Virus record (IMG/VR): IMGVR_UViG_3300037189_007110 | Location: 1 to 22,093 of that record | Reading direction: 5' to 3' (one strand) | Origin: a virus | DNA length: 22,093 nt | In this document: positions 7,758-15,398 of the stretch, piece after piece | How the letters are laid out: every line of letters begins with the position of its first letter | Numbering within the stretch: the first letter of the stretch is position 1 | Position numbers and translations under genes: made by a program | The notes under the pieces: generated by a model | Seen by the model: only the letters and a program-made list of their open reading frames with translations | Told to the model about the DNA's origin: nothing | Database searches by the model: none

Positions 7758-7842
7758 GTCTGAACCTCCGTATCTGGGGGGCTAGACCAACCTTTTGATT
7801 TGCCAGTTCTCAGGGAGGGTGCATTTTTGGAAACAATCCCCC
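7758..7842. promoter_or_regulatory. Divergent control region between integrase and recombination operon
   Basis: About 85 bases separate the minus-strand exonuclease start from the likely integrase ATG. The only clear signal is the exonuclease SD (GGAGG at 7769-7765, minus strand). The part nearer the integrase is relatively AT-rich (around 7790-7840), as expected for promoters and integrase arm sites. A GGGAGG at 7813-7818 lies too close to the in-frame GTG at 7819 and too far from the ATG at 7843 to settle the integrase start. No convincing -35/-10 pair is seen on either strand. Confidence 0.4.
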
Positions 7843-8691
7843 ATGTTGAGTACCACTGGCATTATGCGGTTGGCCGAACTCCTTGGCCTGTATTGCGGTA
7901 GCCGCGAATGCAGCGACCGCTATTGCGAATCCCTCCGCCGCACCGTGCGGCAAGCCGAGGCGGCTGGCGTCGGCACCGTGGCCGACCTCAAGCCAGCAGT
8001 AGTGAACAGATTTCTCTCTAGCCTGTCAACGTCAGCCGTGACCCGGCAAAATGTGCGGCGAGAACTCCTGACGTTATGGAAGTGGGCATTTGAAGAAGGG
8101 CTGACCGAGACGCCGCCGATGCGGGTGATGAGGATCAAGGCTGCTGCCAGACCTGTTGAGGCGTGGTCGCTGGCCGATCTGCGGCTGATGCTGACGCGAG
8201 CAGAGGCAGACCAGACGCGCATCGGAGGGCATGCCAACCGCAGGGTATGCGAGTGGTTTCCGGGGTGGATCGTGATCGCGTATGACACCGCAATGCGGTT
8301 CAGCGATGTGCTTGAACTGCGTGACAGCAACCTTCGCAACGGGTGCATCGCAAGCACGGCACACAAGACAGGCAAGGCGTTGGTCAGGCCACTGTCCGGG
8401 CATGGGCAGGAATGGGCGCAGCGCTTGATCAGTGAATCACCCGATGGCTCGCTGTTCACGTGGTTCCTGACGCGGCGCCGCGCCTTGATGTCGATCCGGG
8501 CGTTTCTCGACAGGCAAAAGATACGCGGCTCCAGCAAGTACCTGCGCCGCGCTGCTGCGACCTACATCGAGATGCGTAGTCCGGGCGAATCGTGGCGCTA
8601 CCTACAGCACTCCGTACCAACTTTGGTACAGCGTCACTACGTGGATGCCTCGCTCTGCCCCGTGCCAGACGGGCCGCCGCCGATCAGGTGA
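7843..8691 (+). CDS. int: Tyrosine-family site-specific integrase (282 aa)
   Basis: This is the only plus-strand gene. An N-terminal SAM-like core-binding domain (about residues 8-90, helical, with LLTLWKWAFEEGLTE) is followed by the catalytic domain: Arg I in YDTAMRFSDVLELR, a beta-hairpin Lys in AHKTGKALVRPL, box II SSKYLRRAAATYIE, His in LQHSVPTLV and the nucleophile Tyr in QRHYVD near the C terminus. In box II the first residue of HxxR is Lys (K-Y-L-R). The frame opens at a TTG at 7795. GTG 7819 and ATG 7843 are alternatives, none with an ideal SD. I chose 7843 because it begins just before the core-binding domain. It sits beside a tRNA-derived core and should drive integration there. Its last 55 bases overlap the opposing kinase-like gene. 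Confidence 0.93.
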   Translation: MLSTTGIMRLAELLGLYCGSRECSDRYCESLRRTVRQAEAAGVGTVADLKPAVVNRFLSSLSTSAVTRQNVRRELLTLWKWAFEEGLTETPPMRVMRIKAAARPVEAWSLADLRLMLTRAEADQTRIGGHANRRVCEWFPGWIVIAYDTAMRFSDVLELRDSNLRNGCIASTAHKTGKALVRPLSGHGQEWAQRLISESPDGSLFTWFLTRRRALMSIRAFLDRQKIRGSSKYLRRAAATYIEMRSPGESWRYLQHSVPTLVQRHYVDASLCPVPDGPPPIR

Positions 8692-9134
8692 CAGAGGTGG
8701 TAACTGTTGGCGTGTACCCAAATCTTGGGTTCCTCGCCATCGAGCAGAAGGTAGTCGCTCATCACCTTTTCGTGAGCCGCGCAAAAGTTCCGCAGCACCT
8801 TGATGTTGCACGGCTTGCCTCGCGCTGCATACGCCCGTGCGATCTGCTCATCGCTGGCATTGAGTTGGATCACGATGTCAGGAGCAGGCAACTTCAACTG
8901 CTTGCGCTTGCGCAAAAAGCGGTAGCCAATCATCCCCTCCACGATCCAGCCATCGTCGCCAACTGCTTGCATCAAGCCGTATAGCGCGGCCACGTGCCCG
9001 TCTCCCAGAAACTTGTCCGTGCAGTAAACGGGCAGGCCGCTGTGTTCGGCAAGCAGATGGGCCACGTAACTCTTGCCGCTACCGGGAGGGCCGATGACCA
9101 CCACGGTGGATGCGTCGTTGAGGTACAGCATCAT
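8637..9134 (-). CDS. P-loop kinase-like NTPase (165 aa)
   Basis: The first ATG of an ATGATG pair (9134) overlaps the preceding stop as ATGA. An upstream extension of the frame is rejected as an antisense-frame artefact of the preceding gene. A hydrophobic strand VVVIGPPGSGKS puts Walker A at residues 15-22. Next come a helix, LPVYCTDKFLGDG (an acidic residue in the position used by small-molecule kinases), DGWIVEGMIGYRF, IVIQLNASDEQIARAYAARG (a lid-like segment) and KVLRNF. This is the layout of adenylate- or shikimate-type kinases, so a nucleotide or other small-molecule kinase is likely, but the substrate is unknown. It ends the virion gene run and converges with the integrase, overlapping it by 55 bases. 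Confidence 0.8.
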   Translation of the reverse strand: MMLYLNDASTVVVIGPPGSGKSYVAHLLAEHSGLPVYCTDKFLGDGHVAALYGLMQAVGDDGWIVEGMIGYRFLRKRKQLKLPAPDIVIQLNASDEQIARAYAARGKPCNIKVLRNFCAAHEKVMSDYLLLDGEEPKIWVHANSYHLCHLIGGGPSGTGQSEAST

Positions 9135-9505
9135 TCCATGTTGTCGCGGCGCAGCACTGAACGCAGTGGCACCGGCTGCGGCTGCGGCATGTCGCCGGGG
9201 GCCGGGGCCACTTGTCGCGGGCCTTGGCCCGGAGGCGGTGCCCACGGCGGTTCCGCTTGGCCGCGCATCTTCTGGAGTTGCCTGATGCGGCCCTCGATTC
9301 CTCCGGGCATGGGAGTGTTGATGTTCTTCAACTCACGCTCAAGCACGCGCTGCGCATCGCGGCGCGGAAAGTTCTGCGGTGCGTTGGGGTCAAACTTCGG
9401 CGCATCTTGCAGACCTTGGATCATGCGCATGTCGGGCTGCATGCCGGGCATGTCCATGTCTGTCACGTAGCGCCGCATTGGTTGTCCGTACATCGGAAGA
9501 GTCAT
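9131..9505 (-). CDS. Proline/methionine-rich small protein (124 aa)
   Basis: The start is ambiguous among TTG 9514, GTG 9511 (overlapping the upstream stop as GTGA) and ATG 9505. The ATG is chosen because a GGAG lies 9 bases upstream and the reading begins MTLPMYGQPM. The N-terminal 30 residues are rich in methionine (RYVTDMDMPGMQPDMRMIQG). A helix follows (NFPRRDAQRVLERELKNINT, then RIRQLQKMRG), then a proline-rich tail (PPPGQGPRQVAPAPGD). It lacks the shared leader of the five upstream genes but belongs to the same coupled string. I recognise no family. A small virion protein is likely from position. Confidence 0.7.
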   Translation of the reverse strand: MTLPMYGQPMRRYVTDMDMPGMQPDMRMIQGLQDAPKFDPNAPQNFPRRDAQRVLERELKNINTPMPGGIEGRIRQLQKMRGQAEPPWAPPPGQGPRQVAPAPGDMPQPQPVPLRSVLRRDNME

Positions 9506-9507
9506 GT

Positions 9508-9777
9508 TCACCAACTCCAGTTACAAGACCAGTACCCAGCCTTCAGTTTGTCTTTGTGCTGGTCGCAGTTGTGCCGCGACTTGAAGTTCGACCGCCGCCC
9601 CTCGTCGCCGTGCCCCTTGCCCTTGCCGCCGCCTTCCTTGTAGTGGCCCATCGAGGCGTCCCCAAAGCGCACGATTCGCTCCTCGCCACCGGAGCAAGCG
9701 CGCACAACGAACTTCTTGCCGCCCTGCGTCTGTCGCTTGGGGCTGTTGCACTTCAGGTTGCGGATGAGGTCGCTCAT
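9508..9777 (-). CDS. Small cysteine-containing basic phage protein with shared leader (89 aa)
   Basis: It starts MSDLIRNLK, the leader shared with four neighbours, via an ATGA overlap. The body begins at once: KCNSPKR, KKFVVRACSGGEERIVRFGD, then SNFKSRHNCDQHKDK and AGYWSCNWSW at the C terminus. This is a conserved small phage protein pattern ('KCN.p......yvvkac..g.ekivrFGd', 'R..F..RHnCd......arYWsC.mW') that I recall from many tailed phages. Cys and His spacing would allow a metal site. The role is unknown; because such genes lie among structural genes, a minor virion or packaging-related protein is likely. Confidence 0.85.
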   Translation of the reverse strand: MSDLIRNLKCNSPKRQTQGGKKFVVRACSGGEERIVRFGDASMGHYKEGGGKGKGHGDEGRRSNFKSRHNCDQHKDKLKAGYWSCNWSW

Positions 9778-9938
9778 TTCTGGGCTGTCTTGGCGGAGTT
9801 GATGAAGTCCTGCTTGCTGGGCGCGCCTTTGTCGCCCGGATCACGCATCTTCTCGCCACTGCCATTGGCGATGCGCCTGCGCTTGGCGTTGATGTTGGCG
9901 TACAGACCCTTCTTCAGCGAGCGAATGCGGTCAGTCAT
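9774..9938 (-). CDS. Small highly basic phage protein with shared leader (54 aa)
   Basis: This gene fills the gap between two neighbours with ATGA overlaps at both ends. It reads MTDRIRSLK (leader variant), then KGLYANINAKRRRIANGSGE, KMRDPGDKGAPSKQDF and INSAKTAQK. The body closely follows a widespread tiny phage protein ('kGLyanI.aKr.rI..GSgEkMrkpG.kGaPt...F..sAktak'). It is strongly basic and probably binds nucleic acid inside the capsid, though I know of no firm function. The leader joins directly to the conserved body with no linker. Confidence 0.85.
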   Translation of the reverse strand: MTDRIRSLKKGLYANINAKRRRIANGSGEKMRDPGDKGAPSKQDFINSAKTAQK

Positions 9939-10135
9939 CGTTGCACCGGCCAGTTGAGGACGAACACGGGTTTGAGTCCGCTACCCACCAGCGGGCGCGT
10001 GGGCGGCGTGTAGATCGGAGGGGCGTCTGGCTGCGGCTGCTGCCCGGCCCGGATCGTGCGGGCGATCTGTCGCCGCGTGGCGCGAGCCTCATGCTCCTCA
10101 TCGATCTGGCGGAGTTTGCGAATGATGTCGCTCAT
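9935..10135 (-). CDS. Small protein with shared leader (66 aa)
   Basis: The start MSDIIRKLR continues into a charged helix (QIDEEHEARATRRQIARTIR, about residues 10-29), then a proline-rich stretch (QPQPDAPPIYTPPTRP) and a hydrophobic C terminus (LKPVFVLNW). Both ends overlap neighbours as ATGA. No family is recognised. Its real coding status is supported by the conserved leader, the coupled spacing and the continuous frame. Confidence 0.75.
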   Translation of the reverse strand: MSDIIRKLRQIDEEHEARATRRQIARTIRAGQQPQPDAPPIYTPPTRPLVGSGLKPVFVLNWPVQR

Positions 10136-10530
10136 CGCATCACCTTCACGATGCCACCGTTGGGATCGCGGCCAATCGCGAACCCCTTGCCGGTCATCCG
10201 ATCCACGCCGCTGCTCACTGTCTCGATGCCCGCCCTGTTAGCGTCCAGCACGGCTGGTATGGCGGGCGGCTCAATAAGATTCATGGCAAATGCCAGCGGC
10301 GTTGGCACATAGGGCGCAGCAACGCTGCCGTCGTTGCGTAGCGAAGCGTCGGCCCGGAGCAAGGCCAACGGCCCGCCGTTAGACAGGGCCGCTACGCGCT
10401 CGGGGCTGTACACATCTTTGGGGTCGCCGCCACCAGCCACGTACTCCGCCTTTGCGCGGCCTGCGTCCTCGGCCAGTTTGCCGTACTGGGGGCCATACAG
10501 CGCTTTGGCGAGCCGGATGATGTCGCTCAT
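10132..10530 (-). CDS. Hypothetical virion-region protein with shared leader (132 aa)
   Basis: It begins MSDIIRLAKALYGPQYGKLA, the leader again, by ATGA overlap. The rest is a mixed helical, alanine-rich protein (GRAKAEYVAGGGDPKDVYSP, then PLALLRADASLRNDG, then LAFAMNLIEPPAIPAVLDAN) ending in a small beta-like part (GKGFAIGRDPNGGIVKVM). It has no recognised family. The segment before GRDPNGG could form a surface hairpin. The product is probably a minor virion or assembly protein by location only. Confidence 0.75.
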   Translation of the reverse strand: MSDIIRLAKALYGPQYGKLAEDAGRAKAEYVAGGGDPKDVYSPERVAALSNGGPLALLRADASLRNDGSVAAPYVPTPLAFAMNLIEPPAIPAVLDANRAGIETVSSGVDRMTGKGFAIGRDPNGGIVKVMR

Positions 10531-10799
10531 TGCCGCACTCCCGTCTTGGTGTTCAAGCCGTCAATGATCAGATTGGGGTGCCCGTCCTTCTTGTGCATGC
10601 TGGGCCAGTGCATGTCTGCATCGGGGGTGTGCCCCATCAGGTAGGCCGCGCGGTAGTCATATTGATGCTCCGGCGCATCGGGGTTGGGGTCGATGTCGCC
10701 GCGCTTTGACCAAGCGCCATACCAACTGCGAAAGGCTCGTTCGTCGCCAGCGCCCCATGACTCCTGCGCGCTTCGCAGTTTGCGGATGAGTTCGCTCAT
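10527..10799 (-). CDS. Conserved small phage protein with shared leader (90 aa)
   Basis: The leader MSELIRKLRSAQE starts by ATGA overlap with the 1230-residue gene. The C-terminal half carries YDYRAAYLMGHTPDADMHWP (residues 48-67), then SMHKKDGHPNLIIDG. This recalls a common small phage motif ('yDyrgay..g...p..gHwpd.fKkpnHptf') found near structural genes in many tailed phages. It may be a tail or head-completion protein. I recognise the pattern but not a proven role. It is the first of the five leader-bearing genes. Confidence 0.8.
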   Translation of the reverse strand: MSELIRKLRSAQESWGAGDERAFRSWYGAWSKRGDIDPNPDAPEHQYDYRAAYLMGHTPDADMHWPSMHKKDGHPNLIIDGLNTKTGVRQ

Positions 10800-13700
10800 T
10801 GCCGTGCCTTTCGTACCTCGCGCAGGTCGCGGCCAAGGGTGCGGAACAAGGCGTAGTCAGGTATCAGCGCGTCGGGGACTTGCGGGATGTTTTCCTTCGG
10901 GATGTAGGACTCGGTGTAGTCCTGCATGAACGAACCCAGCCGACCGGAGAGTTTGCGGCGCGCATCGTTCAACTGCCACGCCGGATCGACGGTGCGGAGT
11001 TTCATGCCCATCATGGTGTTGAACCCAGCCTTGGCAAACCTCTGCGACATCGGAATGCGGTCATCAGCGAACGTGCCGCCGATGCTGATCAGCCGCTGCC
11101 ACGGGCCGGGCGTCACGTTGATCGCCTGCCGGATGAGCGGGTTGAGGCCGGTGGGGGCAGGGGCGCCGGTGGCCTGCTCATAAAGCGATTTGTAGATGCG
11201 GTCGGCGGGCGTGACGGCTTGCTCTAGCGGGCGCCGGGAGAACGTGTCGATTCCCGTTGCGAGTTCTGTCGCGCTCTTGATGAACGGGTTGGCCTGCTGG
11301 GCAAGATTGTATGCCGTGCTTTGGACGGTGCCGTAGGTGGTCGGTGCGAGGCCAAGCAGCGACAGCGTGTCGATGCCCGGAATGTCAATGTCGGTCAGGA
11401 AGGTTGTCTTGTCAGTTTCGCCGGGGATGCCAAGGTACGGCTTGACGGCGTCTGGAATGCGGAAAGCAAACTGCTGCCGCAGCGCCTCCGGTACGTAGGT
11501 GTCCTCGTCGCTTGCTTGCAGCGTGGATAGCCCACGAATCGTCTGCGCGTAGCCGCCGCCGGGGTTGTTTGCGATTTGACCGGCAACGTACTTGCCAATG
11601 CGCGAAGTGTAGGCCCACCACGGGAAAATGCGGCGCATCGTCTGGCGCTCAAACGAAGTCAGGCTACCGTAGTCCACAAGAGCAGAGGTGATCCGCTTGG
11701 CCGCCACATCAGCAGAGATGCCCTGCCGCATGAGGGCAAGCATGCCACCCAACCTCGCAACGGTATCGGTGTAGTCGCTGAACTTCTGCGAAGCATTGAG
11801 CGTGGCGTTCCGGGTTTGGTCTGCCGCTACCTTTTGCCACGGCATGCGGAGGCCACGGAACGTAAACTGATCGGCAACCATCTGCCCCAGCGACCGACTG
11901 CCATCGGGGATCAGTTCACGCAGAGCGTCCATCTTGCTCATCGGCGCGCTGCCGGGAACAAGTTGGTTCATAATGCCGGTCTGGTTAGAAGTCACCAGAT
12001 CGCTGGAAGCCAGCGATTCCAGCACGCCAGTGCGGGCAACGTCCTCGGTAAGTTTTTTCTGAATGGCGTCGGCGTCTGCGATGTTGTAGCCGGGCAGTTC
12101 CTTGAGCAGCGCAGCCGCATCATCCATGCGACCGCCTACAATCGCCTTCGCCGTCTTCAGGCCGTAGTACACATCTGGGACGTTGCCAGCCTCCAGCGTG
12201 AGCAGGAAGGCGTTGCTGTACATGTCGCGCACTTTGGTGGACGGGAACGCGAGGGCAAATCCCTTAAACAAAGTGCTGATTGAATCGAACAGCCAGATCA
12301 CGTTTTCTTGCGCGCGGGGCGAACTGTAGAAATCGTTCATCCGCGTCAGGCGGTTGTACACCTCCTCCGGCAGTGCGTACTTGCGCAGGTCGATGCGCTG
12401 CCAATCCGCCTCTCCAGTGGCCGTTGCGATCGCGCGGCGCAGATTGTCCTGCACAACACGGGAGGCAGAGTTGGTTTTGGCCGACGTATCCATCCCGGTC
12501 TTTAGCGCGATCTCGTCCAGCGCGCGATGCAACGGCTTAAAGTTGACGCCGGGAATGGCGTTGGCGCTCATGCCGTCTTTTACAAAGATGGCGGCCTCTG
12601 CCATGCTGGCGTACACGTGCCGTGCGTGCGCGCGGGCAGTGCCGGTGCTTGCTAAAGCGCGAGCCTGCGACACCGCCGGATGCTCGCTGAACAGCGGAAT
12701 GTCGAGCGGGGTCTTCTTGGGGTCGCGGCGCATAACGGTGCGCGCGATGCCCTCTGCCTGTGCCTGCGAAATCACCTCGCCCGGAGCCACCTTGGGCTGC
12801 ATCAAGGGCTTGCCGGTCTTGCCTAATACCTGATTGCCTTCAGTGTCACGCACAGGCTCAAGGATCAGTTTGCCTTGGCTATCTCGGGCGGCAACCTTGG
12901 CCTTAAACGGGCGCACTCGGGGGTCGGGGGCATTCGGCCCCCACTTGTTGTCGATGTACTTCTTGATGTGCGCGCCGACTTGCTCGACCGACAACTTGCT
13001 CTGGCGGCCTTCGGCAACGAACTGCTTGACGATTGGCAGTTGGCTGATCTCGCGGAAGTCAACGGTAGCGCCGGGCGTCATTAAGTCCCACGAGCGCGCT
13101 TCGTGTTCCAGCATGCGCGTGGTGTTGGAGGCGCGGCTCAATCCGTGGCCGTATTCACCAAAAGACAGTTCGCGCGCTACGCGGGGCGACCATAGGGCGC
13201 CAAAGCGGTCTTGCAGGCGAGCGCGCGGAATGCCAAGTTTCCCCGCTTCGGAGTAGGTCATCGCGCGCAGGCTATCCCAGTTCTTCATTACATCCTGAAT
13301 CGGCTGACCAATCTCGTTGATCACCCGCATGTCGCGCTGCGTGTGTACCCCTTCGTACAAGCGGGTGAGAAAGTCGCGCCCCTGCGGACTGTTAAGCGTG
13401 TCCGTGCCAAGGAGTTTCTGCGCATTGGGGGGCAGAACGACGCGGCTAACGAGTCGAGCGTTTTCGGCACCAGCCGCGCGCATTGCCCGCGTCTCCGCCA
13501 ACTCCAGCGCGGAGCGCTTCATGTTGGAGATTTGATCGATGGCCGCAAAATCCCCGCCGACCCGCTTGTCGAAGAGTTGCGAGCCAAAGCGCGCAACTGG
13601 CGACCACCGGGCCGCCTGCCCAACGCGATCCATCGTGTCGAGCATGCCGCGCGCCCAGCGCGGATTCGCGACGGCGGGGTCAACAAAGTTGAAGTACCCC

Positions 13701-14488
13701 ATGCCGAAGGCGCCGCCAAGAGTGTCGTTCTTGACATCGTCATAACTTAAGCCGCGCTTTTCAAGAAACTGATTGACCTTGATCAGCGCCTGCGCGGCGT
13801 CTTCTTTGGGCATCGCCTTCAGCGTGTCATCCAGCGTGACCATCGACCTTGCGGTGCGCGGCCCAATAAGCGGGCGGTAGGCGGCGTTCTCGCGCGTAAG
13901 CGCCTTGCCTGCTGGCAGGAGATTGCCCAGCCATTCGTAGGCGGCTCTGCCGGTGCGCAGTTGCTCGTTGGCGGCTTTTGCACCGGCGGCAAAGTCTCCA
14001 GCGCCTAGCGCAAGCACGGCTGCGTCACTTGCCTTGTCTAAGACGCCAGCCGCCTGTGCTGCCTTGCCAGCGACCTTCAGCGGGGCGGTGCTGAAAATAG
14101 CGAGCGGGTCTGTGGCGATTTCCGCAGCCAGCCCGGCCCCGGTAGCGAGCCACGGATTGGAGTCCTTGTTTAGCAGGCCATAGGACTCCAGCAGTTCCCG
14201 CCCGCTGACGCGGCGGTCAGAGTCCCAAGAGAAGCCCGATGTCGGATCGCCAGCCAGCACGCCGCGAGCGATAGCGCCGGGGTAGTCCAGCACTTTGCCC
14301 AGCACTTCGACGGCATTCAGCGTCTCGCGTCCTAACGCCGAAAGCGCGGACTGCTTTTGTGCCGGGTCTTCGATGTACGGGACAGATGCCGTAGAGTCAG
14401 CGCCGCCACTCGGGCTAACGCCGAACATCTGCCCATACAGGCGGCGGGCGTCAGAGGGCGCGCCTAGTGGCTTGAGGCCAAGAGCCAT
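10796..14488 (-). CDS. Large internal/ejected virion protein candidate (1230 aa)
   Basis: This is by far the largest gene. It starts at ATG 14488, sharing one base with the previous stop (TAATG). It is mostly helical without signal peptide. Two segments stand out: YSNAFLLTLEAGNVPDVYYG (near residue 755) and ALVDYGSLTSFERQTMRRIF followed by PWWAYTSRIGKYVAGQI (around 935-965). The 'Dy..Lt.fEr...rrifPfy.wtr' pattern occurs in very large phage virion or polyvalent proteins, including ones annotated as internal core or DNA-ejection proteins. I see no lysozyme or peptidase motif. Preceded by two glycine-rich small proteins, it may be the counterpart of T7-type internal core proteins. That is inference. 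Confidence 0.88.
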   Translation of the reverse strand: MALGLKPLGAPSDARRLYGQMFGVSPSGGADSTASVPYIEDPAQKQSALSALGRETLNAVEVLGKVLDYPGAIARGVLAGDPTSGFSWDSDRRVSGRELLESYGLLNKDSNPWLATGAGLAAEIATDPLAIFSTAPLKVAGKAAQAAGVLDKASDAAVLALGAGDFAAGAKAANEQLRTGRAAYEWLGNLLPAGKALTRENAAYRPLIGPRTARSMVTLDDTLKAMPKEDAAQALIKVNQFLEKRGLSYDDVKNDTLGGAFGMGYFNFVDPAVANPRWARGMLDTMDRVGQAARWSPVARFGSQLFDKRVGGDFAAIDQISNMKRSALELAETRAMRAAGAENARLVSRVVLPPNAQKLLGTDTLNSPQGRDFLTRLYEGVHTQRDMRVINEIGQPIQDVMKNWDSLRAMTYSEAGKLGIPRARLQDRFGALWSPRVARELSFGEYGHGLSRASNTTRMLEHEARSWDLMTPGATVDFREISQLPIVKQFVAEGRQSKLSVEQVGAHIKKYIDNKWGPNAPDPRVRPFKAKVAARDSQGKLILEPVRDTEGNQVLGKTGKPLMQPKVAPGEVISQAQAEGIARTVMRRDPKKTPLDIPLFSEHPAVSQARALASTGTARAHARHVYASMAEAAIFVKDGMSANAIPGVNFKPLHRALDEIALKTGMDTSAKTNSASRVVQDNLRRAIATATGEADWQRIDLRKYALPEEVYNRLTRMNDFYSSPRAQENVIWLFDSISTLFKGFALAFPSTKVRDMYSNAFLLTLEAGNVPDVYYGLKTAKAIVGGRMDDAAALLKELPGYNIADADAIQKKLTEDVARTGVLESLASSDLVTSNQTGIMNQLVPGSAPMSKMDALRELIPDGSRSLGQMVADQFTFRGLRMPWQKVAADQTRNATLNASQKFSDYTDTVARLGGMLALMRQGISADVAAKRITSALVDYGSLTSFERQTMRRIFPWWAYTSRIGKYVAGQIANNPGGGYAQTIRGLSTLQASDEDTYVPEALRQQFAFRIPDAVKPYLGIPGETDKTTFLTDIDIPGIDTLSLLGLAPTTYGTVQSTAYNLAQQANPFIKSATELATGIDTFSRRPLEQAVTPADRIYKSLYEQATGAPAPTGLNPLIRQAINVTPGPWQRLISIGGTFADDRIPMSQRFAKAGFNTMMGMKLRTVDPAWQLNDARRKLSGRLGSFMQDYTESYIPKENIPQVPDALIPDYALFRTLGRDLREVRKARQ

Positions 14489-15146: not shown

Positions 15147-15398
15147 CTATTGCCCTCCGGCTTTAGCCTTCTGCTGCGCTTCGTCCCAAGTCATGGGCTT
15201 GCTGCGGTTTTTCATCGCCGCCGCAAGCGCGTCCTCGCTGTCGGACAGGCTCATGCCCTGCTTCTTCCAATACTCGTTGTCTTTGTCATAGTCGCTCTTG
15301 GGCGCGCCGCCTCCGCCTGCGCCGCCGCCGCCGGAGCCACCACCACCACGGGCGCGGCTCATAAACAGTTTGATAAGCGCGGGGATAAGCGCTGCCAT
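15147..15398 (-). CDS. Small glycine-linker protein (83 aa)
   Basis: The ATG at 15398 has a GAGG SD about 6 bases upstream. It opens with a short hydrophobic/amphipathic helix (MAALIPALIKLFMSR), then a pure glycine/serine/alanine linker (residues 18-31), then a charged helical part (DYDKDNEYWKKQGMSLSDSE, AMTWDEAQQ-type end with AAAMKNRSKPMTWDEAQQKA). It sits 2 bases before the glycine-rich gene. The helix-linker-helix plan suits a small virion or membrane-contacting protein. No family is recognised. Confidence 0.75.
   Translation of the reverse strand: MAALIPALIKLFMSRARGGGGSGGGGAGGGGAPKSDYDKDNEYWKKQGMSLSDSEDALAAAMKNRSKPMTWDEAQQKAKAGGQ

Follow-up and report, generated by a model that had tools for sequence, protein, structure and literature searches.

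Why should five consecutive small genes of a virus, encoding proteins whose bodies are unrelated, all begin with nearly the same nine residues? The question is raised by a cluster on the minus strand of IMG/VR record IMGVR_UViG_3300037189_007110, a 22,093-bp stretch of DNA from an uncultured bacterial virus that is analysed here at its full length (the window). Gene A (10527..10799, 90 aa) opens with MSELIRKLR, encoded at 10773..10799 as ATG AGC GAA CTC ATC CGC AAA CTG CGA, and is followed by gene B (10132..10530, 132 aa), which opens with MSDIIRLAK (10504..10530). Gene C (9935..10135, 66 aa) carries MSDIIRKLR (10109..10135) ahead of a basic body, gene D (9774..9938, 54 aa, pI 10.8) carries MTDRIRSLK (9912..9938), and gene E (9508..9777, 89 aa, pI 9.9) carries MSDLIRNLK (9751..9777); neither A (pI 6.5) nor B (pI 8.0) is basic. 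The body of D (KKGLYANINAKR...) is an ordinary member of phrog_16028 (profile match 3.7e-23) and that of E an ordinary member of phrog_7595 (5.2e-15), some of whose homologues bear an HVA1 family annotation. Body A matched no family in PHROGs, Pfam, NCBIfam or 50,697 phages, and homology search found none for body C. The initial annotation, which singled out these leaders, described them accurately: all five genes lie where it placed them and begin with the residues it quoted, and the ATGA coupling it reported is present as a 4-base overlap at every start, including the junction of A with the gene upstream.

That upstream gene (10796..14488, minus strand) encodes a protein of 1230 aa with a pI of 9.5, probably a large late-region protein of the virion or ejection type, and it served as the family marker by which relatives were found. 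Wider context is supplied by a 50,953-bp record, IMGVR_UViG_3300032305_001455 (G001), which is 99.9% identical to the window over 15.7 kb. Its major capsid protein, terminase and portal were identified by PHROG match, and an acidic protein encoded directly before the capsid gene is, by position and composition only, probably the scaffold. In G001, large late proteins are followed by the five small genes and then by a P-loop kinase-like gene. The major capsid protein of the lineage had no tblastn match in the 50,697 phages, a collection that contains no isolate of it, and two scans of bacterial (GTDB) genome contigs, aimed at finding the host, revealed no proviruses of the lineage.

The resemblance of the five starts exceeds what chance would produce. 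Their consensus is M[ST][DE]x-I-R-x-[LA]-[KR], and the likeness between genes stops after residue 9; comparison of bodies A to E with one another gave no meaningful similarity, in agreement with the original description. Over residues 2-9 the mean pairwise BLOSUM62 score of the five N-termini is 21.7, whereas random sets of five drawn from a background of 438 other N-termini (seven related genomes, genes called by a simple ORF method) average -7.0 (SD 2.2); the highest score among 200,000 such sets, 17.3, falls short of that value. The dipeptide IR occupies residues 5-6 in 2 of the 438 background N-termini. A codon pattern for the leader matches G001 exactly five times, always at these genes, and has no match on the other strand or in a reversed control. 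A stretch of about ten N-terminal residues common to unrelated late proteins of one phage, a trait of the capsid targeting sequence (CTS) of phage T4, is thus present. Independent convergence on a generic helix start, in which a Ser/Asp N-cap is followed by hydrophobic and basic residues and no common role is involved, is the least probable of the explanations considered and highly improbable in itself. It draws on single MSDxIRxL starts in unrelated phages, namely a 45-aa membrane-like protein and a 71-aa family beginning MSD[IM]IRKLLDSRLPSDAVAGLGNFLTGQSV (IMG/VR loci L158-L189, one leader-like start each), but it sits poorly with five of five adjacent genes, with the outcome of the random sets, with the rarity of IR at residues 5-6 and with the confinement of multi-copy leaders to this one lineage in pattern scans.

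In relatives, the same leader is found on exchanged bodies. With aligned sequences of the 1230-aa protein as the query, 27 loci were retrieved, and 15 records (about 720 kb) were then scanned with a degenerate leader codon pattern. All 17 matches lie on the correct strand within the small-gene cluster that follows the large gene, against one match in the reversed control of the same scan. Restriction of the leader to one gene cluster, a point the initial annotation had proposed to check, therefore holds for all 17 pattern matches but not for a 517-aa protein of G002, described below, that is encoded outside it. In seven related IMG/VR contigs, six or more unrelated body families carry the leader; two of these contigs, G003 and G006, are near-duplicates, so that the independent lineages number about six. 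Both the content and the order of the cluster vary, from A+B+C+D+E in G001 to B+C+F in G002, B+F+C in G003 and G006, D+E in G007, and B+C+E2 in G011 and in L157, an extra contig found by the pattern, and every one of these genes has the leader. F corresponds to DUF6321 (PF19846; profile match 3.7e-23 in relatives), while E2 represents another subfamily of E (phrog_7595). Homologues of B keep the leader in six related contigs, and in G004 an N-terminal extension precedes it (AAIIRLAK). A further pattern built from AT-rich codons retrieved, besides G007, one unrelated membrane-like protein only and was set aside.

Such exchange invites the explanation that the leader is a passive relic, in which different bodies became fused by recombination behind an old gene start and the leader persists without function. 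Mosaic recombination could indeed yield short shared 5' ends, and the small genes of the cluster are exchanged between relatives. Persistence without function is nevertheless very unlikely, because two observations require selection: in family C the pairwise identity among relatives is 57% in the leader and 31% in the body (counts uncorrected for relatedness), and synonymous codons of the leader have diverged while Ile5 and Arg6 have not changed.

Whether this selection acts on the peptide or on the DNA was addressed at the same two residues, which never differ in 211 comparisons between leaders that belong to different bodies (counts uncorrected for relatedness); in these comparisons the mean BLOSUM score is already negative at residue 10. 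Codon identity is 0.49 at I5, where 0.58 would be expected from genome codon use, and 0.29 at R6, where 0.37 would be expected. Ile5 is encoded by ATC, ATT or ATA, and Arg6 by CGC, CGG, CGA, CGT, AGG or AGA. Since the residues are invariant while their codons vary as by chance, selection is on the peptide. The original statement that conservation is also visible in the DNA applies to codons 2-4, where the excess codon likeness is confined, and fails at the two invariant positions.

These data also bear on the second idea offered at the outset, that of a duplicated translation-start cassette, whose first codons would have been copied between genes for good initiation in ATGA coupling. The overlaps at five of five starts fit this explanation, as do the serine at position 2, nearly always AGC (partly forced by the overlap), and the aspartate at position 3, which, wherever present, uses GAC alone. 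The strictest positions, by contrast, use many codons, with an identity below genome expectation, and there the DNA is not conserved beyond the need of the protein. The leaders MSDLIRNLK and MSDLIRRLA, both of G007, agree in protein while most codons differ (TTG/CTA, ATT/ATC, AGG/CGC), and no common sequence was seen upstream of the gene starts. A copied start cassette is accordingly disfavoured and can be regarded as improbable, though slightly less so than a passive relic. As an observation in its own right, the uniformity of the Asp3 codon is greater than genome codon use predicts and is not forced by the ATGA overlap.

Homologues of the same bodies elsewhere lack the leader. In about 50 distinct homologues of D from other contigs, the body (KKGLYANIN) is preceded by 1-5 residues or by a start of unrelated sequence, and among D homologues the leader or a variant of it occurs only in members of the family defined by the 1230-aa protein. 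When E is aligned with proteins of other phages, the match begins between residues 6 and 11 of E, and its homologues in IMG/VR either have no leader or have different starts. As judged from these alignments, the leader is an addition to bodies D and E that is absent from their homologues elsewhere, as the initial annotation had stated for two widespread families. It had also reasoned that the idea of a shared tag would fail if distant relatives carried the leader for reasons of their own or if close relatives did not conserve it; distant relatives were found to be without it, and near relatives conserve it.

A portable peptide that is under selection as protein calls for a common function, and on balance the leader, M-S-[DE]-[ILVT]-I-R-x-[LAV]-[KR], is probably a lineage-specific N-terminal docking tag that takes small late proteins into the capsid or virion. 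The tag is predicted to form the start of an amphipathic helix, through which unrelated small late proteins would bind one shared phage-made partner during virion assembly. This partner would most likely belong to the scaffold, the capsid interior, the portal or the ejection-protein assembly, and the tagged proteins would be carried into the capsid with the tag left uncleaved. Cargo would include the small basic proteins C, D and E, and in relatives F, which are probably nucleic-acid-binding. The docking role, the virion destination and the lack of cleavage are what we infer from the distribution and form of the leader. In AlphaFold2 models, both of moderate confidence, the leader lies at the start of a predicted helix in B (residues 3-12) and in E (residues 3-6); a PDB fold search with these two models returned nothing at E 0.001. 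A leader-like motif inside the scaffold, portal or other called proteins of G001, which might have offered a receptor-mimicry clue, was not present.

A docking peptide need not serve the virion. The leader might instead join the small proteins to each other or to a non-virion complex, for instance one engaged in late DNA processing, or to the P-loop kinase-like neighbour, whose gene follows the cluster, and this would give the same portability and the same conservation at the protein level. Such a role is unlikely, although better placed than the explanations discussed above, given that three features point to the virion: the cluster directly follows a large late gene, the leader has a 517-aa carrier in the late region, and in T4-like phages the bodies of the E and F types are preceded by starts resembling the T4 CTS.

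The last of these features, seen in T4-like Kyanoviridae, was identified by eye and in a few proteins. The F body stands behind MKSFKDLRSDITEA in S-CAM3, behind MKNFAQYIEED in P-TIM40, and in a 165-aa protein of S-SZBM1 that starts with MKTFKQYITEA; in S-SZBM1 the following gene has MKSFKSFLSES ahead of a different body. The E body forms the C-terminal end of a Melnitz protein whose start is MKKFSEIIEARG. F is also found at the end of large proteins that have no CTS-like start in Sf-FS3 and ACG-2014f, and the Sf-FS3 protein is annotated as structural. In T4, the CTS comprises about 10 N-terminal residues that carry proteins, foreign ones included, into the head core, after which the leader is cut by gp21 (PMC9958956, PMC3012670). 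In phage P1, a reporter is taken to the capsid by the first 30 residues of DarB; the authors found no consensus among Dar N-termini (PMC9024508). The occurrence of E- and F-type bodies behind T4-CTS-like starts, taken together with the precedents of T4 and P1, is most simply read as indicating that these bodies are virion cargo, provided in the present lineage with an address peptide of its own.

The resemblance to the T4 system, which includes the internal proteins and Alt, lies in a short start common to unrelated proteins, whose bodies diversify behind a constant leader (PMC3012670, PMC9958956). The sequences differ, the leader being MSDxIRxLK-like in every carrier, in place of the T4-type MK[TSN][FY]xx[FY]IxE. 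A gp21-type cleavage motif ([IL]xE) is likewise absent from the leader-body joint in the carriers listed. Neither prohead protease was matched in seven records, which are possibly fragments: the control search for S78 found its target, while for S77 (gp21) the positive control gave no match either. With neither a cleavage motif nor a protease match, cleavage of the leader is not expected. The best reading is therefore that the leader works like the T4 CTS but is no member of that class by sequence or processing, and of the T4-like targeting peptide originally suggested, the targeting is the best-supported idea, resting on portability, conservation as protein, absence elsewhere and the E and F bodies behind CTS-like starts, while cleavage is not supported. 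P1 DarB is similar in its use of a short N-terminal stretch as a head-targeting signal, targeting being proposed here from sequence; unlike the Dar proteins, this lineage has an obvious consensus, and on small proteins. Bacterial microcompartments offer a further parallel, in which short, helical encapsulation peptides bring unrelated cargo into a protein shell (PMC12339742, PMC11157265); these are cellular organelles, and the comparison is an analogy only, with no homology shown. By their bodies D, E and F are ordinary members of phrog_16028, phrog_7595 and DUF6321 (PF19846), whose members elsewhere are without this leader. A literature search for shared N-terminal leaders of unrelated phage proteins outside the T4, P1 and giant-phage CTS systems found nothing relevant.

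Carriers beyond the cluster were sought with a profile built from the leaders, against which every N-terminus was scored; among 1094 control genes the maximum was 7.7. The highest-scoring carrier outside the cluster is the 517-aa late-region protein of G002 (MSEIIRLSK, score 16.3); a faint match between it and B (E 4e-4 over 30 aa in a tiny search space) was judged to be chance. Next comes a weak case, a 919-aa protein starting MSELARKLI (score 8.5) in G003 (L143, genome position 28697) and G006 (L145:12142-14901), two records of one species group for which a search for relatives gave identical copies only. An ART-PolyVal match, below the Pfam cut-off, runs from residue 9, directly after MSELARKLI, and for phage polyvalent proteins packaging and injection are predicted (PMC5512222); as a leader carrier this protein is suggestive only. 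The first gene fragment of G001 is matched by the C-terminal part of the 919-aa protein. Two genomes carry variant starts in place of the standard leader: the D and F bodies of G004 (L108/L115) share KxGDxVRKAK, and the D and E bodies of L116 share NxVKxLK, E having a GTG start in a GTGA context. If real, these two cases would mean that the copies of the tag within a genome change together, as would a tag that tracks its receptor.

A bolder form of the docking-tag reading is conceivable, somewhat short of an even chance: the leader would represent a second class of capsid-targeting peptide that evolved independently, is uncleaved and protease-free, and serves as the universal cargo address of the whole lineage. 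It would deliver the small basic proteins and the 517-aa late protein, perhaps also an injected polyvalent protein that contains an ADP-ribosyltransferase, and would diverge with its receptor from lineage to lineage (KxGDxVRKAK, NxVKxLK). Good descriptions of shared capsid-targeting leaders essentially concern T4 and its relatives, with evidence from one protein in P1. Should a different sequence fulfil this role for bodies of the same kinds, cargo addressing would have more than one evolutionary origin, packaged or injected proteins of uncultured phages could be read from genome sequence, and a virion-cargo function would be suggested for widespread uncharacterised families such as DUF6321, phrog_7595 and phrog_16028.

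Several other features of these genomes were recorded. A lone plus-strand ORF of the window (7795-8691), located between kinase-like and exonuclease-like genes, reads by eye like a recombinase or integrase. A small minus-strand protein (15147-15398), MAALIPALIKLFMSR followed by a glycine-rich tract, has an N-terminus conserved in G002 and G011, and a 527-aa protein of G001 starts with MSQASLRKLLDSG. The gene after E (9131-9505, minus strand) encodes a proline-rich protein with counterparts at orthologous positions in L113, L117, L122 and L157; these relatives keep a C-terminal SVLRR or SVLKR while the remainder has diverged, and this ending is a possible C-terminal counterpart of the leader.
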